Source: an uncultured Lachnospiraceae bacterium (lineage in GTDB: Bacteria > Bacillota > Clostridia > Lachnospirales > Lachnospiraceae). Taken from it: 38,913 nt of DNA. Shown here piece after piece: positions 3,890 to 35,201 of the stretch. The notes beneath the pieces were generated by a model. It saw nothing but the letters and a program-made list of their open reading frames with translations, made no database searches and was not told the DNA's origin. The stretch covers positions 1-38,913 of the forward strand of contig CAMWLV010000017.1 in assembly GCA_947175175.1 (NCBI GenBank), in the 5' to 3' direction. A program made the position numbers and the translations under genes. Position 1 is the stretch's first letter. Every line of letters starts with the position of its first letter.

Positions 3890-6800
3890 TTATCGCCCAT
3901 CCCTGCTGTTTTTCCTTGTCCCATACTGCATCCCGGACTCCGCCACCCTGCCGTTTTCAGGCTCTTTCGTCCCTGCAATATCCTGCACCCTGCTGTTCTC
4001 AAGGTCGAGCTCGGCATTAAGTGCATTTAAGCGGGCTGTCTTTTCAGCAAGCTCTTTTTCCTGAATAAATGGTTTTTCATACTCCTGTTTTGACTGTTCC
4101 ATGTCACGGCGCAGCTGCCCGATCTGGTCTTCAAGGTTCCTGGCCCTCTGTTCCATACCTGCCACGATGTTTTCCAGCTTTACCATGTTCCCGACAGGGC
4201 TTGACGAGAGATCCGTGCTGTGGTCTGTCTTTCCGCGGAGGATCATATACCTGTATCCGAGGACATCCTTCCGCAGAAGGAACTCAAAGCATTTATACTG
4301 CCCGGCAGATATTGTTTCTTTCTCATCACAGTCAGCCATTGCCTCTATCACGGCATTTCCCGCTTCCGTCCGTTCCGTGTACCTTTTATTTTTTACCGTG
4401 ATGGCAAAATCCGGCTCCGCTGCATTTGCCGCCCCTGCTGCAGCTATATCGCCGCGCACGCAGGCAAGCCGCTCCTCTGCCGCTGCCATCTGTTTCGGGT
4501 AATGGATCATGATATTGTCCTCAAGGGCATAGTGCTGTCTGTCATAGCTCGATTTTAAGACCTTTAACCGTTGCACGTCATTCTCAAGCTGCATCTTTTC
4601 CTTTATTTTAGGATTCCCGGTCGCCACGGCCTTGATCTCCGCATACGAGAGCGTTGCTTCGTCTATATCCTCACAAGTCCTTGATACGGCCCTGCTCGTC
4701 ATGACCTGCGAGATAAAACGCTGCTTATTTTCCACCAGCGCCCATGAGTACGCATCAAAGGTCCCTTTTGTCACATAGCGGTAGACTGCGATCTCCCCAT
4801 TCTCGTTTCCCTGCCTGATACCCCTTCCGTCCCTCTGCTCAATGCAGGAGGGCTTCCAGGGACAGTCTACATGATGCATTGCCGTAAGGTGCGTCTGTAC
4901 GTTTACACCGGTCCCGCACTTGTCAGTGGAACCGATCAGTATTTTTTTCTTACCCGTCCGCATCTCCTTAAAAAGAGTGTCCCTCTGCGCATCCGTCGAG
5001 GCATCATGTATAAAGGCGATCTCCTCCGCGGGAATGCCGGACTTTACAAGCTCTGTCTTTAAATAATTATAAACATCAAACTCCCTCTCACCACCCGCAA
5101 ATTTTTCCTCCCAGTCTGCACTCCACGAAGCCTTTGGCGTCCCGATGTCGGAAAAAACGAGCTGGCAGCCTATTTTACCGTCCCTGTTTCCGGCAAAATA
5201 TTCGGCTGCCACATTCTGTGCCACCTTATTTAATTTGCTGTCCGGATCATCTGGCGCATCACGCTCTAAAAGCCTTGCATCCGTCCCGAGGAGCCTTGCC
5301 TCATGGGTGATCTTCAAAAAATTGTCCTCGCTTGGATCGACGTTCCCGTTCCTGATCCTTTCTGCCCGCACCACAAAATCTTCCATGACATTCTTTACAA
5401 ACCACCCTGGTTCGCTGTTGACAATGACTGGTTTCCCACCGCGCAGTTCTGGCACGGGAAGGCTTATCATGTCAGCGGTTATGACATCCGCCGCCTCCTT
5501 GAAGGTGTTCATCAGCTCCGGCAGGTTTGTGAACCTGTTAAACCTGCTCTTAAGCCGGAAGCCCGTCCCCTCCACGGTAAGCTCCAGCGCCGTCGTCACC
5601 TCCCCGAAGTTTGCCGCCCATGTGTCAAAGTGGCGGATACCCATGTTTTCTAACGCCGTTTTCTGGAGATAAAGCTGCATGACATACATCTCGCAGATCG
5701 TATTGGATACTGGCGTACCTGTGGCAAAAACAATGCCACGGTTCCCGTAAGTCTCTGTTATATACTGGCACTTAAAGAGCATGTCCGAGGCTTTCTGTGA
5801 ACCGGAACTGGAAATCCCTGCAACATTGTACATCTTTGAAAATATGGCAAGGTTTTTGAACATATGCGCCTCATCCACCATGATGGAATCAATGCCCAGC
5901 TCCTCAAAGTTTATGAGGTCGTCCTTCCTGCCCTCATCCAGCAGCGCCTTAAGCTGGGATTCCAGTTTTTTCTTCTGGGACTCCATCTGTTTGACGGTCC
6001 AGCGCTGTCCGTTCTGTGCTTTTGTCTCCGCGATTGCAAGGCTTAACTCATCAATCTGGTCATTTAACATGCGCTCCCTGCGTTCCTTTGATACCGGGAT
6101 CTTCTCAAACTGCGAGTGCGACATGATGATGCAGTCATAATCCCCTGTCGCAATGCGTGAGATGAACTGCCTGCGCCTGTTCTTCTCAAAGTCCCGCTCC
6201 GTTGCGACAAGGATATTTGCAGACGGGTAAAGGCGCATGAACTCCCCTGCAGTCTGTCCGACAAGCGCCTTTGGCACGATGATGGCGTTCTTGTTTGCAA
6301 GCCCTAACCGCTTCTGTTCCATGCAGGCTGCCATCATCGTGAAGGTCTTGCCGGCCCCGACACAGTGCGCAAGCAGCGTGTTCCCGCCATAGAGTATCCT
6401 TGCGACTGCATTTTTCTGGTGGTCACGCAGCTTAATCTCTGGGTTCATGCCCGGAAAGCTGAGGTTTGAACCGTCATAGGAACGGAGCCTGATATTGTTG
6501 AAGGTCTCATTGTAATACTTTACATATTTCTGTCTCCTTTCTGCATCACGGAAGATCCAGTCCCTGAATGCCTCCTTCATCTGCTCCTGTTTTTCCCTTG
6601 CAAGCATGGTCTCCGCCTTGTTAAGGACATAAGTTACCCGGCCGTCTTCATCCTCCACCCGGTCCCGCACTGTCACAGTCCGCAGGTTTAATGTCTCCTC
6701 AAAAATGGAATAGGCATCAATCCTTTCTGTACCGTATGTTTCTTTTGCTGCTATGGACTTTTTGTCAAGTGACTTGTTTTCAATGAACCAGTCCATGCTG

Positions 6801-9800
6801 TATGGATTGAGGTGTACCTGTATGCCTGAATCTTTGTACCCGCTCCTGAACGCCTGCGCCCTTCTTGGTGTTTTTAACAGTTCATAAATGAACGCCTCGT
6901 AATCCTGCGGCTCGATCCATGTAGTCCCGATGCGGACTGCGATCTCCGATGCATCAAGGTCCTTTGGCTGCACCTTTTCCAGCGCCTCCACATTTGCTGC
7001 AAACAGCCCTGCATCCTCCCGTGCATAAGCCTGTGCTGTCCGCAGCTTTTTCCTCACATTCCCGGACAGGTATTCATCCGCTGTTTTCCACCCTTTACAG
7101 GGATTGTTTCTGTCGTATTCTTCCGGGTCTAAGAAGATCAGCCCTGCCAGTTCCCTGACTAAAACAGTGCGTTTTAATTCATCTGCATGGACAGATGGTA
7201 AATCTTCCCCTTCAGAAATCTCCGCAGATACGGACGCCGTATCTGGTTCATAAATGCTTAACATGAACGGGATATTTACACTGCCATACTCACCAATGGA
7301 CACATTCAGTGCCGCGGCTGCCGTGTCTACCCTGTCGGGTATGATATTTGGACGGATCGTCTGCTTATGGAACATGTCTGCCTTTTCCACCTTCCCGTCA
7401 CTGTCCACGGTCTCAAGTGAACACAGCAGCGGATAGTCTGCATCGTCACGAAAAGCACGTATACTGCCCTGTCCCGTCAGCGGCCCGTATTTTTCCACAT
7501 AGGCGTCATATTTCTGGTTCAATATCCCCTGGTGGTATTTTAAGTCCTCCCCGCTGCATCCGTTTGTCTGTATGAAGATAAGCTGTCTTGTGATATTCCT
7601 GATCTCATCCATCAGGCGGATCCTCTCCTCCGTGGCAGCCGGGACCTCCTTCCGGTACATGATTGAATTTTCCCTGTAATAGAGCTTTCCGTCCACAAAA
7701 GTATGGGTGTAATTCTTTACATCCGGGTCTGCGTCAATGGTGTCAGCAGGTTTTTCTCCTTCCCCCACAAGTTCGATTACATCAGTGATCCTTCCGGAAA
7801 GGTTTGCAACTGCTGCATCCAGTGCGGTTTTTAGGTCAAAGTTTTCATCATGATTGACGCAGCTTGTGTACTTACTGTCATTTCCAAACATACTGCTGTC
7901 ATATTCCATCTTTCCAAGCATCATTTCAGGGTGCTGTGCAAAATAGGAATTGACCGGGATGCCATCCTCCGTGTGCCCGAGATGCACCCAGTCCGGTTCG
8001 GCCACGGTCTTTTTCTCACGCTTCTGTAAAAACACGATATCGCTCGTCACGTCCGTTCCCGCACTGTCCCTGAATGCTGTGTTCGGAAGTCTTATTGCAC
8101 CGATAAGCTCAGCGCGCTCTGCAAGGTATTTCCGTACTGTGGGATTTGCCTTGTCCAGTGTGCCCTTGCTCGTGATGAAAGCCACGATCCCGCCCGGTCT
8201 TACTTTGTCAAGCGATTTTGCCATGAAATAGTCATGGATACGGAATCTGTATTTCGCATATCTTTTGTCATAAAGGCTGTAATCGCCAAAGGGCACATTT
8301 CCCACCGCAACATCAAAAAAATTATCAGGGTACTGTTTTTCCTCAAATCCCCTGATGCTGATCTCTGCTTTCGGATAGAGCAGTTTTGCAATCCTGCCCG
8401 AAATGTCGTCCTTCTCCACGCCGTAGAGCCTGCTTCCTGCAAAACTGTCCGGGAGGCTGCCGAAAAAGTGTCCCACACCCATTGCCGGCTCTAAGATGCT
8501 GCCGCCGTGAAAACCAAATCTTTCAAGTGCGGCATGGATTGCGCCCGTGATAACAGGATCGGTGTAAAAGGCTGTGTTTACAGATTCCCTCGCGTCTGTG
8601 TATTCCCTGTCGGATAAGAGGTCTTTTAATTCCGCGTATTCTTTCTGCCAGCTTTCATTTTTGTCGTCAAATGCCTGCGGGATGCCGCCCCATCCAACAT
8701 ACCGCGCAAGGATCTTCTGCTCCCCCGGCGCCGCGGGACGCTGTTCATGCTCTATCCGTTTTAACAGTCTGATGGCTTCCACGTTCCAATGGTATCTGGT
8801 TTTCTGTCCAGCCTTCTTGTCCTTTAGAAGGCTTGATTTCCTGTCCTTTGGAAAACTTGCCTTCCTGTTGTCAGTCTGATCTGAATCAAAGAATGAATTA
8901 TCAAAGCGGAAGTTTTCACCTGACTGTATACTTTGGTCTGATAATAATTCTGGACGTTGGGCATTCAAATCATTAACAGGATTTATATCTGGTTCTATAG
9001 CCTGCACTGGTTTAGATTCCTCTGTCTGCCCCGGTTCCGGCTGTATTTCAGGCACATCCGGCATCCCTGGCAGTTCCAGTGCTTCAAGGACTGGTTCCTG
9101 CTCCATTTTCTTACGGTATTCATGATAAATGTCCATAAACCAGTCCGCTGCCATGAAGGACTGCGGTGTCTCCTTGAAACGTTCATAAATACCTTCGCCA
9201 ATGTATTCATCTTCCTCGATCATGCGCATGACAAGCGCAGCACAGTATCCGTAATCTGCCCTGTGCTCTCCTGTTGTACCGTCTGGTTTTATATAGGATA
9301 TGGTGATACCGGTCTTATCCCTTGTGATGCAGTCACCGGTGCCGTCCTTTTTCTCCAGCTTCACAAATCCCTCATGCGGCCTGCCATATACGGCAGCAAG
9401 AAAATCAGACTTTGACTTCATGTCAAGGTTTGTGGTGAAAATGTCATAGATAAGTGTCTGGACCGCAATATACCCTGGCTCTTCCTTAAAATAACGCATC
9501 AGCCGCCCGGTCCAGAGACGTTCTTCATTTTCATCTGTCCTTTCCAAGTCTTTTCCTGCTCCTGCAAGGTTTTTCCTGTACAGGAATCTCTCCTTGTTTA
9601 CATTGAGGCTTGCAGCGAAATCGTGCATGAACTGTTCCATTTCTTCCTCGCTGATGCGCGTCCTCAGTCCGGGACAATTCTTCAGGATATATTCATAGGC
9701 ACGCCTGCCATGCCACTCTCCGTCTGCATTCCATATGGCTGCCTTGTCAAAAGTCTCATTCCATGCGGCTTCAGTGTCTCCAAGCCCGGCCGCTTCCAGT

Positions 9801-11854
9801 GCGCGCCGTAGCAGTTCCACACGGCAGCCCTGTCTCTCCCCCGGCGTCCCTGATAAAAATTCCTGTGTGTATCTTTTCAGGCTGTCCGCCTTTTTCCCAT
9901 CTTTCGTGCAGGCTTCACTCCCATCATACTGAGCATAATCACATCCTGCATTGTATACGCCATATGCGACCATATCGCTGATGTATGAGGTGCAGTCCTG
10001 CCAGTCAAGCAGCACCCGCCATCTTTTTCCATTATCATCATTAAAATCTATGGTGATCCCATCCTCACCGCGCTCCACCTCACATCTTCCATACTGGTTC
10101 ATAAAGATATTCCTGGACACAAGGCTTTCATCCGTAAATACCGTTTCCACAAACTGCACCTTGTCGCTGAAAGGGATACCCTGCTGTATAACTTCCCTTA
10201 ACGCAATATTGGGAAACGAAAGCCAGAATCCGCCGTTAAAGAACTGGTCCGCCGGCTCCTGCCAGAGTGCCACGGACACCTTATCCGGATCAAAGTCGGC
10301 GGGAGGAGTATAATATTCCCCGGATCTGACAAGTGCCTGCAGTTCACGCACAATGGTTCTCCAGTCCACATATCCGTCTTTTTTTATTCCGTTTTCATAC
10401 CATGTAAAATGCATCCCGCCGGTATGGTAAGTGTCATAGCCCAGCGCTGTCCCGTTCCACTCAATGGAGCGCCCTGCCTGCCCGTACAGCTTTTTCACTG
10501 CCGTGATGCGTTCTGCCGGATCCGGTAACTTATGAAAGAGTTCATAAATACGTCTTTTCCCGTATGCGAAACCGCTGTCACTCATGAGTGCATGTCTCAC
10601 ACACTCCCGCGGCACTGTGAGCACCGTCTCCGTTTTTTCTGGCATCTCCACGCTGCCGTCCGGCGCAATCAAAAAGGAAGCCTGTTTAAAGCTTCCCTTT
10701 TCTTCCTTTAATGGAATATTGTCTGGTAAATTTTCTTTTAGTGGAACTTCATCACGATCTGTGACATTACGGTCTCCTCTGCCTGCATTCTCGCCTGATT
10801 TCGCAGCTGCCACATCTCCATCGTGGACTGCGGATCCCTGGGCGGATTCTTCTTTAAATAATCCGTCTCCAGCAGCTCCATCATGCTGTATGCTTCCGCC
10901 TCCACCTCCTGCATTGTCACGCCCAGCATCCCGAGGCGCACCAGCGTTTTGTAACGGTCCTTGTGGTTCTCCCTCAGATATTCTGCCGCCCTCAGCGCGA
11001 ACCTCCCGAGCTCCGCCATTGATACCTCTTCCACTGGCAGCTCCAGGTCGGGGTAGAGCATCCCGTCCGCCCCCTCGTGGTATGTCAGCATTGTTTCTTC
11101 CATAAGCAGCACTCCTTTCCTCAGCCTGTTTTAGATCGTTTGCAATACCCCTCAGCACTTCACAGGATATGTCGCTTATGAGGGCTCCCATATGGCTTAT
11201 TTCCTTCTCCTCTGTAAATTCAGTGATGAGGGAGAGGTCCTGCACCCTGGGCGGGATGTCAAAGCCGCATCTTGTAAACACTGCATACATGACGCTGCAC
11301 TCCAGCAGTTCTGCGGCCAGTCTTTCCCTTTTTCCCATGGAATCCATAAACCTATTAATCCTGTCTGCAAACTCTGATTTCATTATGACTCTGATCTGGT
11401 CTTCTGTAAAGGCTTTTAGGAAATTTAGATCAGATTCTTTTTCAGCGGGATCTGCCACCGCTCCCATTTTTTCTTCCCATGCGCCTTTGTTTTTCAGGTA
11501 TTCCATATAAGCCGCGGCATGTTCACCATCAAGCTCCCATGTAAGTTTCTGTTCCCTTCCCGCCGTGTCGCTGATATCGAATACATAACGCATTTCTGGT
11601 TTCAGTGCCCTTGACGGGAAGATGGCAATTCCTTTGCTTCCGCGCTTTACGTATCTGCCGACCTTTTTCCATGTATCAAAATCAGCGGCGATCGTCGTAT
11701 CAGGACGCTGTATGTACATCAGCAGGATGTTGTCAAACTCATAACGGTACAGCTGTCCCGTGAGCCTGCACACCTCCTTCCACTGTGCCTGTCCGCTGGC
11801 AGCTTTCCTCACTGCATCGCTGTAAAGCCTGTTTATTTTATAATCAGCGCCCAT
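3890..11854 (-). CDS. Giant DNA methylase-helicase fusion (DarB-like architecture)
   Basis: A 2654-residue protein. The N-terminal ~85 residues look like the ArdC-type single-strand DNA-binding domain found in anti-restriction proteins. A low-complexity Gly/Ala/Arg linker spans about 250-372. An adenine methylase core follows: an AdoMet-binding motif ([14 protein letters not shown], ~1125) and a catalytic motif (NVPFGDYS, ~1188). An SF2/SNF2 helicase comes next: Walker A (GAGKT, ~1833), DEAH box (VDEAHMF, ~1993), motif III (ATGTPVSNT, ~2047) and motif VI ([10 protein letters not shown], ~2340). A helical, probably coiled-coil tail ends it. Phage P1 DarB joins the same two activities and protects incoming DNA from restriction, so a similar role on transfer is likely but inferred. 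The start is ATG 11854 with GGAGGT six bases upstream. The linker overlaps another gene in a second frame. Confidence 0.85.
10738..11103 (-). CDS. TnpV-like protein nested in the methylase-helicase gene
   Basis: A 121-residue frame on the same strand as, and wholly inside, the giant gene, but shifted by one base. ATG 11101-11103 follows AAGGAG with eight bases between, an ideal ribosome site inside the host gene. The protein reads like TnpV (PF14198, named from Tn1549): a short start ([18 protein letters not shown]), an acidic VEEVSM, then [19 protein letters not shown], then helices ending in ...EETVMSQIV. The host frame over the same bases encodes a Gly/Ala/Arg-rich linker, which is what an overprinted non-conserved frame looks like. 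The TnpV likeness is from memory and not searched. Its function is unknown even for family members. The alternative is a chance open frame, which the ribosome site and ordered protein sequence argue against. Confidence 0.65.
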
Positions 11855-11856
11855 AT

Positions 11857-12420
11857 TTACACCTCCAGTATTGCTTCCCTGATATCTTTTCCATCAATCC
11901 CATCTCCAAGACAATCCCAGCCTTCATGTCTTTGCCTTGCAAACAGCTCAATCCGCGGCACGTCCCCGCACAGCTCCACGATCCTGTCCCTGATCTCGTC
12001 CGGCTTCCTGCTGTGCTCCATGATTCTCGCATCACATACCTGTGCCACTGCCTTTGATATTCTTTTTGGCCTGCCTTTTGTCCCAAGGAGACAGATCTCC
12101 GAGTTGGAACGCGTCCAGAAACCAAGTCCCATAAAGAACGTGTCTGCTTTTTTATTTCTCTTAACCCAGTTAAAAGCGCAGGTCTTGTAGGTAAATCCCC
12201 AGCTTTCCATGACAGAAAGTCCTTCCTTAAGGCACGGGAATGTCACCCACAAAAAAAGAACACAGTCATCATCGGCAATCGACTCCACCGGTAATGACCG
12301 TATTTCTTCAATGTCCATGGTATGGTAATGGTTCTCCGCGCTCCTGCCCTGCCCTTTTTTGGAATAAACCCTGTATGCCCATGGTGGATCTGCATAGATT
12401 GTTTTATACTTTTTTCCCAA
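11857..12420 (-). CDS. MT-A70 family adenine methyltransferase
   Basis: A 187-residue protein with the MT-A70 catalytic motif DPPW at residues 11-14 ([10 protein letters not shown]) and the expected length for phage and ICE members. The family transfers a methyl group from AdoMet to N6 of adenine; bacterial mobile-element members probably act on DNA. The start is TTG 12418-12420, with AGGAGG ten bases upstream; no ATG fits the conserved N-terminus. It begins 5 bp after the preceding gene and ends 2 bp before the giant methylase-helicase gene, so the three are one operon. With the methyltransferase at 15116-15892 and the methylase part of the giant protein, the element carries three methylation modules, consistent with hiding its DNA from host restriction. 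Confidence 0.85.
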
Positions 12421-22628: not shown

Positions 22629-24833
22629 TTAAATTAACTTCCTGCCCCCCTGCACTGGCTGGAATGCCATTCTGCACTCCCGCATCTTTTCCACATCTGT
22701 TTCAGGATAAAAGACAGCAAGGATATCTTCCTGCGGCATTCCAATATCCATCATTTTATGGAGCTCGTCCTTCTGTTGCTGCGAATACTGCCACTGTGCC
22801 ATGCGGTTCATGATGGTGTCCTCCCCCGACAGCTTCCGCCGTCTGGAAAGTGTTTTTCCCGTGGTCTGCGCCGTCTGCTCTTTTTCTTCCTTATCCGTTA
22901 TATCCTCCTGTAAGTACTGCAGTTCGTTATCCTCCTCCATATGGAACCTGTCCCTCTGTCCTTCTTCCATGTCAAGGAAACGCTTTTTTATCTCTGGTTC
23001 CGTAAGGAGTCCTAGCTCCTCATATTTGAGGGTGTCAATATACACGTTCCCGCCTTTCTTTTTCAGTTCCTCATAATAGGCAAGGGATCTCTTTGTAAGT
23101 ATCTGGTAGGGCTTTGATACATCACCGCCCTGTTTTGGTATATGTACATACGGCACTCCTTTCCCGTCCGCCGTCTGTACAAATGCCGGGTGTGCAAACG
23201 GTACAAACTTGTTGTCAATGACAGGGTCAAAACCACGGATAAAGATGATGCATTTCTTATTGTCCAGCTTCCTTACTTCATCCGGCGTAAACAGCTCCCT
23301 GCCAAGCACGTCATAATTGCGCGACGAGCTTCCCTGCCTGCCCTTTGTCTCACCGCTTGACTTCTTGTCGATCGTGCCCTTTCCAAGCAGCTCCGAGACA
23401 TATTTGTGCGTGCTCTGTTCATTGCCGCCAAGATAAATGAAAGTGTCGCAGTTGCCTGGCACGGTTTCCCATGTATCCTTGAAAAGCGCCTTTAACTGGG
23501 CAAAATTCTGGATTATGATGATGCTTGATATCTCCCTCGACCGCATGGTTGACAGAAGGGAACAGTAATCATCAGGCAGCGCGACGTTTGCAAATTCATC
23601 GAGCATGAAGGTAACATGTACCGGAAGCCTGCCGCCGCAGTTGAAATCCGCCTGGTAGTAAAGCTCCTGGAAGATCTGTGTGTAGAGCATGCCGATTATG
23701 AAGTTATAGGACTTGTCGGAATCGGGTATCACACAGAACAGTGCGCTCTTTGTCTCCCCGTCCCCGTTTACGCCGGTCCCCAGCTCCGCAAGCTTTAAAT
23801 CGTCCCTTGACAGCATGCGGAGCACCTGCTTGTTTTCCAGGAACGCAAGGCGGGAATTGGCAGATATGATGATGGAACGGACGGTATCGCCCGCACCGCG
23901 CATGCACTTGTTATACTGCTTGACTGCTGGATGCGCCGCACCGAGTTTTCCGTTCTCCTCCAGGTACTTCATGCGCTGGTCAAGCTTCGACGGCGCATCC
24001 TGCTCCGTGACCTCCGCCTCACCCAGAAGCTTTAAGACTGTCTCAAAATTCCTCCTTGCAGGAGGCTCCTCCATCCACACATAATAGAAAATGGACTGTA
24101 AAAAGAGCCCCTCTGCCTTCTCCCAGAATGGGTCGGACGGCGTAGCTCCCTTTGGTGTGGTATTGGATATTAAGTTTGTGATCAGCTTTACGATGTCTGT
24201 CTCCTCACGTATGTAGGAAAAGGGATTGTAGCAATCCGACTTTTCCATCTCGAGCAGGTTTATGACCTTCACGCTGTAACCGTTATCCTTTAACATCTGC
24301 CCGCAGCTCCTTAAGATCTCTCCTTTGGGATCGGTACAGATAAAGGAACAGTGGTGCGGCATCTGCATCAGGTTCGGCTTTACCTCGTAAAAGGTCTTTC
24401 CCGCACCGGAACCGCCGCAGATCAGGATATTCCCATTCAGTTTCAGCCGCCGGAAGTCCAGCGACATCTTCACATTCTGGCTCAGTATCCGGTTAAAGCC
24501 ATTGTCCCTGTCGGCAAGCACCTTATTCACGTTCTGCGGGCTTTCAAACCTTGCCGTGCCAAACTCTTTCCCCGGCATGAAATTCTTCTGGCCGGTCAGG
24601 TACATCAAAAGTGCCGTTGCATAAACCGTCAGGGCCGCAGCCACGGCTTTCATGGTTGTGTCATTAAAATAGTTGGCAAAGGGAGCTGCACATACACTGT
24701 TAAAAGATACAAGGAAAGTATTCAGGTCCATGCCCTGTTCGTAAGAACCGTTTATCAGGTATCCTGCATAAGCGCTCAGGGCAGCCCCGGCAAGTATGAT
24801 CCATAAGGACACCTTTTTCTTTTTTGGCATCAT
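22629..24833 (-). CDS. VirD4-type coupling protein
   Basis: A 734-residue membrane ATPase that brings the relaxase-DNA complex to the secretion channel. Two membrane segments lie at about residues 9-27 and 62-80. Walker A is GGSGAGKT at 140-147, with Walker B in FMLDEFANVALPDD near 411. ICTDPKGEILRS (~165) and SSIIIIQNFAQLKALF (~450) are further hallmarks of the TraG/VirD4 family. The C-terminal ~130 residues are charged and helical and may recognise cargo. The start is ATG 24833, eight bases after GGAGG; a second ATG follows directly. It overlaps the PcfB-like gene by 4 bp (ATGA), the same coupling seen for pcfB-pcfC in pCF10-type systems. Confidence 0.95.
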   Translation of the reverse strand: MMPKKKKVSLWIILAGAALSAYAGYLINGSYEQGMDLNTFLVSFNSVCAAPFANYFNDTTMKAVAAALTVYATALLMYLTGQKNFMPGKEFGTARFESPQNVNKVLADRDNGFNRILSQNVKMSLDFRRLKLNGNILICGGSGAGKTFYEVKPNLMQMPHHCSFICTDPKGEILRSCGQMLKDNGYSVKVINLLEMEKSDCYNPFSYIREETDIVKLITNLISNTTPKGATPSDPFWEKAEGLFLQSIFYYVWMEEPPARRNFETVLKLLGEAEVTEQDAPSKLDQRMKYLEENGKLGAAHPAVKQYNKCMRGAGDTVRSIIISANSRLAFLENKQVLRMLSRDDLKLAELGTGVNGDGETKSALFCVIPDSDKSYNFIIGMLYTQIFQELYYQADFNCGGRLPVHVTFMLDEFANVALPDDYCSLLSTMRSREISSIIIIQNFAQLKALFKDTWETVPGNCDTFIYLGGNEQSTHKYVSELLGKGTIDKKSSGETKGRQGSSSRNYDVLGRELFTPDEVRKLDNKKCIIFIRGFDPVIDNKFVPFAHPAFVQTADGKGVPYVHIPKQGGDVSKPYQILTKRSLAYYEELKKKGGNVYIDTLKYEELGLLTEPEIKKRFLDMEEGQRDRFHMEEDNELQYLQEDITDKEEKEQTAQTTGKTLSRRRKLSGEDTIMNRMAQWQYSQQQKDELHKMMDIGMPQEDILAVFYPETDVEKMRECRMAFQPVQGGRKLI

Positions 24834-26420: not shown

Positions 26421-27571
26421 CATTCCACCCCCTTTGTCCTGTTTTCGTAAACCGCTATTTCTATGATCTCCTCCATCTGTTCTGCCGGGAGCTGGTAATC
26501 TATCAGCACCATGAGCTGGCTGTCGGTAAGTCCTTTTTCAAGGGCGCTCCTGACCTGGACAAGCTGCTTTGCTTCAAGCCCCCTCTCCGCAACCAGCTTT
26601 ACGATATCTGTCTTTCTTTTCAAGAACAGACGTGAGAACAACGTGCTTATAATGCCATTTTCTTTTTTCTTTTCCATACGTTCAACGGGAACCATCTGGA
26701 CAATCCGTCCGTATTCATCAACCAGCGCTGTCCGGTATTCCGTATGGACCACAAGTGTCTTATCCACCGCGGATGCGGCATCCATAACAGGACCGCTTTC
26801 TTTTTTAACTGCCATTCCTGTCTGTCTCACCACTGGATCATTATCATATAGACTGCCTGTATTATCAGACTGCGCCTTTCTTTCCATGATACGCCTTTCC
26901 CTTGCGGACTCTTCCATCTCGCCTTTTAACCTTGCGATCTCCGCCCTTGCAGCGTTGATCTGGTCCTGCTGGTTCTCAAGCAGTTTGTCCCTGTCGGCAA
27001 GCTGTGACTGGAGGCTGTCCAGATCCTGTGTTGCCTGCTTTGCCGCCTGCAGCTCTTTTAACTTTTCATTCAGTGCATCATAGCGTTTCTCCTGGAAATC
27101 AATCTTTTCCACAGCCTCGCTGATCCTGTTTAAAAGTTCCTCCGCATATGCTTCATCTGTACCCGTCTTTTTCTGTGCCGTATCAAGGTTTTTCATGATA
27201 TTCTGGAACAGCTTTTTCATTGTAAAGGCTGTCTGTCCCGTATTCTGTGTGATCTCTTTTATGGCCTCAAGATTCACTCCTTTCTCGTAAAATTCAAGAG
27301 CGACCGCCATCTGTTCCCCAGTAAGCCCTTCCTTTGTAACAGCGTCCATGACTTCGCGACCGTATCCATTCCTCAAACACACTGAATAAACCTTCATCTG
27401 CGTATAATCAAGCTTTTTGGCAGTATACTCCTCGGTCTCTTTTGGTGTAAGCCCGTACTTTAGATCCTCCTCCACAAGCCTGAGCATTGCCTCAGTAAAA
27501 CGCGGATTATTTTTCAGGCTCTCCATATAGACCTTTAGATCCATGTTTGTCATCGCGCTTCTTTCCTGCAT
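26420..27571 (-). CDS. Coiled-coil protein downstream of the relaxase, unknown function
   Basis: A 383-residue cytoplasmic protein I cannot name. The first ~110 residues carry helical phrases spaced about 36 apart (LTPKETEEYTAKKLDYTQMK, LTGEQMAVALEFYEKGVNLE), and LTDSQLMVLIDYQLPAEQ near residue 350 matches them, so a short repeat occurs at both ends. Residues ~150-230 form a long coiled coil (LKELQAAKQATQDLDSLQSQ). An amphipathic, partly hydrophobic stretch (IISTLFSRLFLKRK) lies near 300. The start is ATG 27571, just after AAGGGAG; ATG 27553 is an alternative. It overlaps the relaxase gene by 22 bp, so it is likely made in step with the relaxase. Confidence 0.75.
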   Translation of the reverse strand: MQERSAMTNMDLKVYMESLKNNPRFTEAMLRLVEEDLKYGLTPKETEEYTAKKLDYTQMKVYSVCLRNGYGREVMDAVTKEGLTGEQMAVALEFYEKGVNLEAIKEITQNTGQTAFTMKKLFQNIMKNLDTAQKKTGTDEAYAEELLNRISEAVEKIDFQEKRYDALNEKLKELQAAKQATQDLDSLQSQLADRDKLLENQQDQINAARAEIARLKGEMEESARERRIMERKAQSDNTGSLYDNDPVVRQTGMAVKKESGPVMDAASAVDKTLVVHTEYRTALVDEYGRIVQMVPVERMEKKKENGIISTLFSRLFLKRKTDIVKLVAERGLEAKQLVQVRSALEKGLTDSQLMVLIDYQLPAEQMEEIIEIAVYENRTKGVE

Positions 27572-29076
27572 TTAGCTCCCTCCTTCCTTTTGCTGCATGA
27601 TATATCACTACTTGCTGCTTCATAACGTGATGTATTTTCCCTGTCATTCCATATATTGTCGCTCATATTCTTTTCTGCTTTGCTCAAAACGCTGTCCGCC
27701 ATACACTCCTTTAAAATGCGGCCTGCAATGCGCTCCTCATTTGCCACCTTTCTCTCTTTTTCACCCGCAAGCAGGAGCTCACCCTGAAAGTGCTGTTTCA
27801 AAGCTTCCAGCCGTTCCGGCGTATATCCTTCCTTTAGAAGCACTGCATTTAACTCCTGCCATCGTTCATGTTCTTCCTCAAATAAAGCTTCGCCGCGGCT
27901 GTAACAGTCCTCACACTCCTGCAGCTCCCTCATTTCGTCCGCCACATCAAACAGCGGCTTAAAACGGGCTCGTTCCTTATAGATCCTTCTTTTTTCCTTT
28001 GAAGCCTCCTCCCGCCGCTCCTGTAAGGCATTCACAACGGCGGCAATATCAGAAACACTGTCAGCCCCGTGTCTGTTTAAAAAGAGGTAATCCTCCTGAA
28101 GCCTGTGCATCATGCGGATATCATCACGGTATTTCCATGCCTGGCTGTAAGGCCTCTTCTTCAGTTTTCCTGTCTGGTATAACTTTGCAAAATAACGTTT
28201 CTGGATGCCTGACATTTTTGTCCGCCGGTATCTTTTTACCCTGCACCGCACAAGCTTCGGCGCCCGCTTTTGTTCCGGCTGGTACTGTGACAGGTTTTCC
28301 GTAAGGATTCTCTCACGGATGCGATCCCTCGTATAATCAGGTCCAAGACCTTGGCAGCGTTTAAAACGTGCCATTCCCATTGGTCTGACAGCAAGATATT
28401 TTCCGTCGCTTTCATATGCATTTTTAACTGCATATCCCATCCCCAACAGCATGGATAAAAAAGATTCATACGTCGGCGACTGGAGAACACAGGCATCAAT
28501 ATCACGCCGGATCATGTCCTTCCAAATGGATCTCCCGTTTTTTGTATCATTCCATTCCTTATATTTTTCAGGTGCTTTTGTGCTGTCCGGTGATATTTCG
28601 ATCGTGGACAGTCCGTACTCCTTACAGAGACGGTTTACCATGGGCTGTATACTCTCCGCCCAGTCCCCCTTCTCATAACGGTATTTTTTTCCATCACGGA
28701 AACTGACACTGTTAAATATCACATGACCGTGAATATGGTCCGTATTGTCGTGGACCGCGTACAGTGCTTCATAATCTTTTCCAAGATATTCCCCTGCAAA
28801 CCTTCCAATGATCTCAAATGCTGTCGCCGCATCCACTTCACCTTCCACAAAGGATATGATCATGTGGTAGCCCTGCCGTTTGTCCGTCTTTCCAAATGCC
28901 GCCTTTGTCTGACGCATCTGGCTGTAGACATCTTCCTTCTGGCAGTTTAAGGCGCCCACCCATTTTCCGTCCCCGGTCTTTTTGGGGACAGTGATATAAT
29001 CGAGCGCCTGCCTTAAATGCTTTCCTGAATACCCTTCCCCGCAGTCACCGATGGTGAGTATCTTACTAATCGCCAA
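27550..29076 (-). CDS. Relaxase (MobA/VirD2 type)
   Basis: A 508-residue DNA-nicking enzyme of the MobA/VirD2 family (PF03432), probably MOBP. The three-histidine metal site is in HDNTDHIHGHVIFN (His109, His114, His116, with His118 next). The candidate nucleophile is Tyr28 in ALDYITV, just inside the N-terminus as usual. The enzyme cuts one strand at oriT and stays attached to the 5' end. The C-terminal half is basic and helical, as expected for DNA handling. The start is probably TTG 29074-29076, as AISKILTIG matches the family start; GGGAGG is 11 bases upstream, and the upstream frame has no better site. mobC lies upstream across a 151-bp gap that holds a 7-bp hairpin. Confidence 0.9.
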   Translation of the reverse strand: MAISKILTIGDCGEGYSGKHLRQALDYITVPKKTGDGKWVGALNCQKEDVYSQMRQTKAAFGKTDKRQGYHMIISFVEGEVDAATAFEIIGRFAGEYLGKDYEALYAVHDNTDHIHGHVIFNSVSFRDGKKYRYEKGDWAESIQPMVNRLCKEYGLSTIEISPDSTKAPEKYKEWNDTKNGRSIWKDMIRRDIDACVLQSPTYESFLSMLLGMGYAVKNAYESDGKYLAVRPMGMARFKRCQGLGPDYTRDRIRERILTENLSQYQPEQKRAPKLVRCRVKRYRRTKMSGIQKRYFAKLYQTGKLKKRPYSQAWKYRDDIRMMHRLQEDYLFLNRHGADSVSDIAAVVNALQERREEASKEKRRIYKERARFKPLFDVADEMRELQECEDCYSRGEALFEEEHERWQELNAVLLKEGYTPERLEALKQHFQGELLLAGEKERKVANEERIAGRILKECMADSVLSKAEKNMSDNIWNDRENTSRYEAASSDISCSKRKEGAKCRKEAR

Positions 29077-29202
29077 ACTTTTAACCACCTCCCTAACCTG
29101 GATAAACCGAAACCAAAATTTTGCCATTTTGTGCAAAAATCGTTGTTAAGTGCCTGAAAGCAAATGCTGTTTATTTAAAGAAACATTAATTATGTATTGC
29201 CT

Positions 29203-33338: not shown

Positions 33339-35201
33339 TTATTCCTGGCTGGAACCGTCTGTCTCTGTACTCTCCTGCCCAGACTCTTCTATCATTATCT
33401 CAGTACACTCTTCTGTACCGCCCTCTATTGTCTCGGTACACTCTTCCATAACTTCTGGTTCAGGATCAGGATATGATACCTTTTCTGTATCTTTTTGCGG
33501 TTCAGAATTTTTAGTTTCCGTTACTGTACCTTCTTCCTCCCCGCTGTCCCCCTTCTCCTGCCTGATATTTAATATCGCACGGTAAATCTCGTCGAAGGCT
33601 GCATCCTTACTGATGGAAACTCCCTTTGTGAGCAATGCGGATGCCAGTTTACTCTTGCCATCACTCACACTCTGAAAAACCTGCTCAAGCTCCTGTTGTA
33701 AAATATCCAGCTTTTTCTCTATGTCATGACTGCCTGCCATGTCTGTGATTGTCCTGTTGTACTCATCAACACTCTCAATAAGACGTTCAAACATCCCTTC
33801 CAGCCTGTTTTCCAACTCGAGGAAATCCTGTGCCGTCTCCTCCCTCATGCTGTTTGTCAGCGCTGCACTGTCCTGTCCATTAGTCAAAAGCTGGTTCTCC
33901 AGGAAGTAAAAACGCTCCATCATATAATTGTTATATTCCGAGAAAAGCCGTGACATCTCACTGTTGATACCCGAAAAGCCCTGTGACATCTCACCCTGCA
34001 TGCCGCTCATTGAAACAGAAAGATCATCTGCCATGCCCTGCATGGAGGCCGTGATATTTTCCAGGTTCTTCAGGGAGCTTTCTGTCATGCTGTCCTCCAT
34101 TGCCGAAAGCACTGCAAGCGTTTCTGCGTGGTCTGCACTCTGCGCCGCACCAAGCTCTTTGATGAGGTCACTGATCTCCTGGCGCGCATCTGCGTAATCC
34201 GCCCGGATCTGCTCGATCGAAACCATGACATTTACAAAAGACTTCCTTATCTCGTCCTGTCTTTCCACATTAGACGTTTCAATAAATTTCAAAAGCTCCA
34301 GGATATCCTTCCTTGTCCCTGTGATCTGGTCATGGAGGGTTCCCAGCTTCTCCATTAAACTGCCATATTCCTGTTCCATCTGTGACAGTATCCCTGAAAA
34401 TCCTTTTTCAAGCGTATCTGCAGCATTTCTGCGTACAGTGTCAAGGGCCTGTACCAGCTCCTTATGTTCCTCCCCATTTTCCTGCTGCAGGAGGTTTATT
34501 GCTTTCGTAAGGCTGTCATGGTATTCCTTTGTATTTTTTTCTGCCCGTAACAGTGCGTCCTGCAGTACTGACAGTCTTTCCGATGCGGATGCAAAGTTCT
34601 CTGCCCCTGATGTCTTTAGGTCAGACAGTAAGGACAATACCGAAGAACTGAGGGATCTGATTTGTGAAATGGTCTCCTGTCCGTCCTTGGAAAGCTCCGA
34701 AATGGCTCCTGCAATCTCGCCGTTCTGGCCTGCAAGGTTTTCAGCATGTCTGTCAACAAGATTCTCTACGCATAACATGCTGTCCTCCAATACTGAAAGT
34801 CTTTCTGAAAGATCAGATAGTGTCTGCTGTGTCTCTGCCTGCATGAGTCCCGCCCTTGCAAGGCTTTCCTGGTTCTCCACGATCGTCTGGTCTGCCCTGT
34901 CAAGATATTCATCCATATCTTCAAGCTGCTCTTTCTCTGCTTCAAGCTGTTCTGTATCTGATGCCGGTTCTGACTGCTCCTGCCCTGAAACAGCCTGTTC
35001 AGCAGCAGCTGTCTGTTCTGACTGCTCCTGCTCTAAAACATCTGTCTCCTGCTCCGCTATGGCTGCCTGCTGCCCATTCTGTTTTACCTTATTGGACCGC
35101 GCCACGATCAGTACTGTAAACAATACAACAATTAAAACAGAAACGGCGATAACGGCCATCTTATGCTTTTTTAGATATCCTGTATTAAATTGATTTCCCA
35201 T
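33339..35201 (-). CDS. Membrane-anchored long coiled-coil protein
   Basis: A 620-residue protein. One membrane segment lies at about residues 15-34 (MAVIAVSVLIVVLFTVLIVA); with the basic residues on the N-terminal side, the bulk should be outside the cell. A Gln/Glu-rich linker (to ~100) is followed by ~400 residues of helical, coiled-coil sequence full of leucine heptads. Near residues 515-550 is the phrase SDGKSKLASALLTKGVSISK, which resembles a short motif (GKxxIAxAITxKGVxTS) of Bacillota phage tail and surface proteins. The tail is acidic. ATG 35199-35201 is six bases after AAGGAG. No cell wall anchor is seen. It may be a surface fibre helping mating contact, or a cytoplasmic scaffold if oriented the other way; neither is proven. 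Confidence 0.75.
   Translation of the reverse strand: MGNQFNTGYLKKHKMAVIAVSVLIVVLFTVLIVARSNKVKQNGQQAAIAEQETDVLEQEQSEQTAAAEQAVSGQEQSEPASDTEQLEAEKEQLEDMDEYLDRADQTIVENQESLARAGLMQAETQQTLSDLSERLSVLEDSMLCVENLVDRHAENLAGQNGEIAGAISELSKDGQETISQIRSLSSSVLSLLSDLKTSGAENFASASERLSVLQDALLRAEKNTKEYHDSLTKAINLLQQENGEEHKELVQALDTVRRNAADTLEKGFSGILSQMEQEYGSLMEKLGTLHDQITGTRKDILELLKFIETSNVERQDEIRKSFVNVMVSIEQIRADYADARQEISDLIKELGAAQSADHAETLAVLSAMEDSMTESSLKNLENITASMQGMADDLSVSMSGMQGEMSQGFSGINSEMSRLFSEYNNYMMERFYFLENQLLTNGQDSAALTNSMREETAQDFLELENRLEGMFERLIESVDEYNRTITDMAGSHDIEKKLDILQQELEQVFQSVSDGKSKLASALLTKGVSISKDAAFDEIYRAILNIRQEKGDSGEEEGTVTETKNSEPQKDTEKVSYPDPEPEVMEECTETIEGGTEECTEIMIEESGQESTETDGSSQE

Follow-up and report, generated by a model that had tools for sequence, protein, structure and literature searches.

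The 366-bp frame described here is very probably a separate, functional tnpV gene lying wholly inside the giant methylase-helicase gene of a conjugative element, and this is the best overall explanation of the sequence evidence. Homology of the product to TnpV, a Shine-Dalgarno (SD) sequence and ATG common to the relatives, purifying selection in the clade tested, openness of the host frame and co-divergence of the two genes have been demonstrated at the sequence level. The window, i.e., the whole stretch of DNA analysed, is one entire contig of 38,913 bases and contains the following features.

3890..11854, minus strand: host gene, 2654-amino-acid methylase-helicase (Pfam matches to Eco57I MTase, ResIII/SNF2 and Helicase_C)
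10738..11103, minus strand: nested tnpV gene from ATG to stop, 121 amino acids, in the host +1 frame, with a PF14198 match
10742..11104, minus strand: Gly/Ala/Arg-rich linker of the host, i.e., the overlap in the host frame (ORF reading and host alignments)
11112..11117, minus strand: SD sequence AAGGAG of the nested tnpV, with an 8-nt spacer to the ATG, conserved in relatives
11120..11854, minus strand: conserved N-terminal domain of the host, upstream of the overlap (alignment of hosts)
11857..12420, minus strand: MT-A70 methyltransferase gene directly upstream of the host gene (context)
22629..24833, minus strand: T4SS coupling protein (conjugative context)
27550..29136, minus strand: relaxase (conjugative context)

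The sequence-only reading had proposed a 121-codon frame contained entirely in a 2654-codon gene, on the same strand and in a shifted frame. This observation was confirmed by the ORF coordinates, with the ATG at 11103, the stop codon at 10738-10740 and the first base of each TnpV codon falling on host codon position 2. The AAGGAG said to lie eight bases ahead of the ATG was located, and the host-frame translation over the overlap is rich in Gly, Ala and Arg, as had been stated. The ORF list also holds a longer form of the nested frame (10738..11112, 124 amino acids) with a GTG start. The third frame contains eight stops across the part matched by the TnpV profile. The window looks like a conjugative element, judging from the relaxase and coupling protein together with genes for a TraG-type ATPase and NlpC/P60. 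A DUF6674 gene (1990-2955) and a 620-amino-acid frame devoid of any Pfam match (33339-35201) are present on the same element.

The search of the 121-amino-acid product against PF14198 (TnpV) gave 74.7 bits (E 7.3e-21, Pfam gathering cut-off 27) over positions 5-111 of the 111-position model, which bears out the earlier suspicion of a TnpV-like product; a search of NCBIfam gave no match. Carriage by a mobile or conjugative element, as expected for the TnpV family, was found in the TraG-type ATPase, coupling protein and relaxase of the window. Eighteen hosts with weak N-terminal scores encode Met/Glu/Lys-rich nested products, and all 18 of these diverged copies have an SD match of at least 6 nt ahead of a Met codon (best of the candidates). 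Comparison of four diverged groups with TnpV by hhalign profiles gave probabilities of 96.9, 88.9, 99.0, and 99.4. Among four diverged samples submitted to Pfam, two were accepted (63.9 and 56.3 bits), one scored 25.6 bits, under the cut-off of 27, and the fourth had no TnpV hit. The weakest group (L280-type) is a putative TnpV, assigned by its position and a weak profile similarity only.

The nesting is a feature of the giant protein family and extends beyond the single locus of the sequence-only reading, in which the finding was underestimated. A search of 391 genomes of the class with the nested product gave matches in 71, and 109 of the TnpV places listed (L002-L031, L149-L227) were examined, a copy being called nested when it lies inside a same-strand open frame extending at least 150 codons beyond both sides. 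By this definition 48 loci were nested (52 rows, four of which are second matches in the same loci), 59 were standalone and two had a short outer frame; the frame relation of TnpV and host was identical in 48 of 48 nested loci. When the host N-terminus was used as the query, 76 of 80 genome loci, the best 80 among the matches listed and all from one clade, proved to be nested. In the remaining four, the host frame closes right at the TnpV start (L073), TnpV is shifted downstream (L098) or absent (L096), or the locus ends near the match (L108). Among viral-contig loci, 13 of 37 were nested; the sequence stops just past the match in L113 and L126, L119 has no TnpV, and the 21 weak relatives L128-L148 show none either.

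A profile of the host N-terminus had hits in 97 of 391 genomes, many over short stretches only. From this list 39 host places were chosen for having no nested TnpV seen earlier, and 35 of them nonetheless had a TnpV-like frame at the same position, some very diverged and two (L263, L270) cut short. Altogether 96 of 101 distinct host N-termini carry the nested frame in the same place and frame, the label being a TnpV profile score of at least 15 bits in the host +1 frame, with an open host frame not required; six of the 96 rows score below 30 bits. Of the 101 hosts, 28 came in via TnpV searches or a plasmid TnpV hit; among the 73 obtained via host searches, 69 show a TnpV-like ORF at this position and in this frame. 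The sequence-only reading had named frequent stops in the nested frame of relatives with an open host frame as evidence against its claim; both counts came out the opposite way. In a sample of the phylum, TnpV was matched in 26 of 398 genomes, and 11 of 26 loci with a usable match were nested, nine of those from other classes; three further loci had no usable match. Plasmid records from Enterococcus faecalis and Virgibacillus also carry a nested tnpV.

An ATG with an SD match of at least 4 nt precedes 122 of 123 nested copies, and the match reaches 6 or 7 nt in 96 of them. A match of at least 5 nt was found at 116 of 123 nested TnpV starts vs. 30 of 792 same-frame ATGs in the N-terminal DNA of the hosts, where 178 of 792 reach at least 4 nt; each nested start was picked as the best among several candidates, a choice in favour of this set, and the 123 include many close kin. 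The sole failure is L010, and its kin L007, L008, and L022, as well as L125, have weak, distant candidates only. Among standalone tnpV copies the ATG is present in 61 of 66. As expected for a same-strand nested pair, both frames are open, the inner one has its own start codon and SD sequence, and the arrangement is kept in relatives.

Because even the nearest relative of the window copy in the set is distant (45% identity), the codon tests were run on another clade, in 651 pairs drawn from 64 distinct sequences, the two N-termini of a pair differing by 2-20%. Within the overlap, the differences per site were 0.084, 0.054, and 0.178 at TnpV positions 1, 2, and 3, and those in the single-coding host N-terminus were 0.064, 0.056, and 0.210 at the corresponding host positions. 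Along 61 sequences analysed by parsimony, on a tree built without the overlap, the host pattern with position 3 fastest turns to the TnpV pattern at about host codons 275-394 and then reverts. Over the whole host (46 sequences of one clade, 2705 codons) position 3 was not the fastest in six of 134 segments, all within codons 260-400 and coincident with the position of TnpV. The substitution pattern that the sequence-only reading wished to see compared in both frames is therefore that of TnpV inside the overlap and that of the host outside. Changes per codon amounted to 2.08 for TnpV, 2.58 for the host N-terminus, 5.46 for the host reading of the overlap, and 4.95 for the third frame, so that the host reading is kept no better than an unused frame. 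From these values it follows that TnpV sets the sequence and the host linker is the by-product, and in the clade tested the counts agree with the asymmetry that had been guessed. Selection on the inner protein was thus found in one clade of relatives. For the window itself, comparison with its nearest kin L127 gave 52 of 115 shared residues in TnpV, 34 of 115 in the host reading, and 40 of 115 in the third frame; nucleotide identity at TnpV positions 1, 2, and 3 was 0.58, 0.70, and 0.52, i.e., position 3 is only mildly the fastest.

The overlap also bears the mark of the outer frame. Some TnpV codons would introduce a stop into the host frame if they ended in T; at these codons, T was found in 0 of 685 cases in nested vs. 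448 of 912 in standalone copies, the zero being partly due to definition, as the nested set was defined by an open host frame. Nested copies contained no host-frame stops, against 2.58 per copy predicted by synonymous shuffling; for standalone copies 8.15 were predicted and 6.79 observed on average, a mild deficit there too, and seven of the 66 had two or fewer stops. The GC content is 0.507 in nested and 0.418 in standalone copies, and the contrast in stops persists within GC bands. Taken alone, the window sequence is unsurprising in having no host-frame stop (P about 0.3 under synonymous shuffling), and the strength of the result hence comes from the relatives. At conserved 4-fold sites, third positions of TnpV showed 3.46 changes vs. 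7.29 in the host N-terminus (p 0.00014), and no difference was seen at 2- and 3-fold sites (p 0.43). The fall was smaller at 4-fold sites free of stop risk, with 4.44 changes (16 sites) vs. 7.52 (44 N-terminal sites; p 0.025 against all 59 N-terminal sites), which points to openness as the main constraint from the host, plus a weak extra one. Selection on the outer frame was accordingly found for openness, partly by definition, and is weak at the amino-acid level. In the set labelled by the TnpV frame alone, two of the hosts that end inside the locus lose their frame at this point: L028 (L243 is the same place) within the overlap, and L270, where TnpV itself is cut short, in or near it. Some hosts look decayed: L028 has its stop within the overlap, L016 a short way past it, and L073 where the overlap begins.

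Other explanations of the nested frame have to be weighed against these observations. The second frame might be open and TnpV-like merely through conservation of the host protein, as a shadow ORF. A composition common to same-strand frames would speak for this, as would a host linker that looks poor in codons giving +1-frame stops. However, the host reading is the least conserved of all, host position 3 is the slowest or nearly so in the overlap when a fast position 3 would have favoured this idea, free tnpV genes exist with stops in the host frame, and the SD sequence and ATG are conserved, so that we consider a shadow ORF extremely improbable. Just as hard to credit is a recent insertion or decay, in which a tnpV happened to enter the host gene and the host has died or soon will. 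It is true that tnpV is a mobile-element gene and that integrated elements inside snf2 genes are reported in the available part of one study (PMC9815147). However, the same place and frame recur throughout the distinct hosts, and the distances of host and nested TnpV are correlated (Mantel r 0.874 over 90 loci; none of 999 permutations reached this value). Moreover, the host frame reaches at least 2100 codons in 63 of the 76 nested genome loci, several of the others being cut by contig ends, and the host phase is normal on either side of the overlap.

It is also conceivable, but very unlikely, that a +1 ribosomal frameshift yields TnpV as a fusion to the N-terminal domain of the host instead of by internal initiation. 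The TnpV frame is indeed +1 to the host, and in some loci it is open for 20-60 codons upstream of the ATG; in others (L005, L293, L294) a stop stands directly before the ATG, and the SD sequence and ATG of the nested copies, along with the ATG of the standalone ones, speak against a fusion. With a separate nested tnpV gene as the preferred reading, one mRNA would give two proteins: translation from the host start codon would yield the giant protein, and ribosomes initiating internally, about 750 nt further on, would yield TnpV. The approximately 120 host residues might then serve as a flexible bridge with a sequence dictated by TnpV, and the nesting would tie the supply and survival of TnpV to the giant protein.

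Un-nested hosts make up five of 101 rows, which correspond to four places. Four of these rows, from three places (L274, identical to L017, L275, and L276), have a free tnpV upstream on the same strand, and L278 is an un-nested host with no TnpV at all. The host linker is absent in all three un-nested hosts aligned (L275, L276, L278; the alignment left out L274). In L014 and L017, which are the places L275 and L274, respectively, tnpV is preceded by a ParB-type gene. In a quick host tree with several long branches, L274 and L275 fall in a supported clade with nested hosts, and un-nesting therefore looks derived in these two. Nested copies stand on both sides of the midpoint root in the host tree as well as in the TnpV tree; in the latter, a single group comprises 44 of the 66 standalone copies, and the label nested or alone needs nine changes vs. 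45 by shuffling (135 rows). This TnpV tree has few columns, many open forks and a midpoint root. Standalone copies carry 6.8 host-frame stops on average and none has zero, which suggests that tnpV can readily leave a host gene but can enter one only with difficulty. It is possible, if on balance doubtful, that TnpV originated by overprinting within the giant protein's linker and became independent afterwards, as the free-standing tnpV of transposons and mobilisable elements; neither tree has an outgroup root, and insertion of a free tnpV is the alternative direction.

The predicted structure of TnpV, a hairpin and four helices of good confidence, had no clear structural match in a search of the PDB. 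A mobilisation protein, relaxase, serine recombinase or ParB lies in the stretch around 25 of 59 standalone loci (six probe proteins, no background control; seven of the stretches reach at most 1.5 kb on each side), and runs of tnpV, NikA and relaxase occur at L188 (names from Pfam), L199, L216, and L227. A role as an excisionase-like factor has been postulated for Tn4451 from homology to lambda Xis, according to the part of PMC3158075 available, and a serine recombinase near seven of 59 standalone loci would fit it. Against this role stands the title of Lyras 2004, as cited in PMC5704250, which names TnpX as the sole protein encoded by Tn4451/3 that transposition requires. Given these neighbours, a merely postulated Xis role and a TnpX that suffices alone by that title, we favour TnpV as a probable accessory of DNA transfer or mobilisation of the element and regard the excisionase-like role as unlikely.

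A second, standalone TnpV is present about 6-9 kb downstream of the nested one in L053, L057, L059, L061, L063, L065, L069, L071, L076, L093, L103, and L109; in three of these loci (L065, L103, L109) the end of the host frame comes ahead of this second TnpV, an effect that an integrated mobilisable element could have. In five host genes (L220, L223, L266, L268, L279; from five genomes with two family codes) the open frame breaks off at methylase motif I and continues immediately in the +1 frame, with a CGG codon at the break in every case. A pattern built from these five spots was found in five of 391 genomes, at those spots alone, and the break may be a programmed frameshift or shared decay.

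The TnpV family, the host family and nested genes in bacteria are already known. In Bacillus subtilis, the small gene comS lies in another frame of the giant gene srfA on the same strand. The tnpV/host pair resembles it in this arrangement, but comS/srfA is known as one regulatory locus of one lineage and tnpV/host is a widespread mobile-element pair. The genes-within-genes of the Rpn family, as presented in the text available (PMC10327210), likewise give two proteins per gene by separate internal translation; there the outer protein contains the inner one as its C-terminal portion, whereas the nested TnpV is a different protein in a different frame. In the accessible accounts of Tn4451/Tn4453 and of integrated mobilisable elements (PMC3158075; PMC6435816), TnpV of the same family (PF14198) and a similar mobile-element setting is described as a gene of its own, unlike the present one, which is fully enclosed by another gene and read in a second frame. 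The host is comparable to the polyvalent proteins of Tn1549-like elements (PMC5512222, main text), both being giant multidomain proteins beside T4SS genes, and several domains per chain were found here as methylase and helicase matches in Pfam. The word "overlap" is absent from that main text, the paper is not among the text matches for TnpV, and neither it nor the portions of the TnpV literature at hand mention a conserved tnpV nesting. One reason for its having been missed may be the NCBI rule, as worded in the section available, that bars embedded genes unless individually justified (PMC8665328). The gene tables of the two plasmids, from Enterococcus faecalis and Virgibacillus, show only an SNF2-related protein at this place, in a table known to be incomplete.

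To our knowledge, long bacterial gene-in-gene pairs on one strand are poorly known, and the evidence for them usually comes from a single species. The tnpV/host pair has an inner gene from a curated family, is widely conserved and comes with free homologues that serve as controls and with naturally un-nested versions; for these reasons selection on two frames can be measured cleanly. With this finding, many conjugative elements gain one conserved predicted protein, TnpV.
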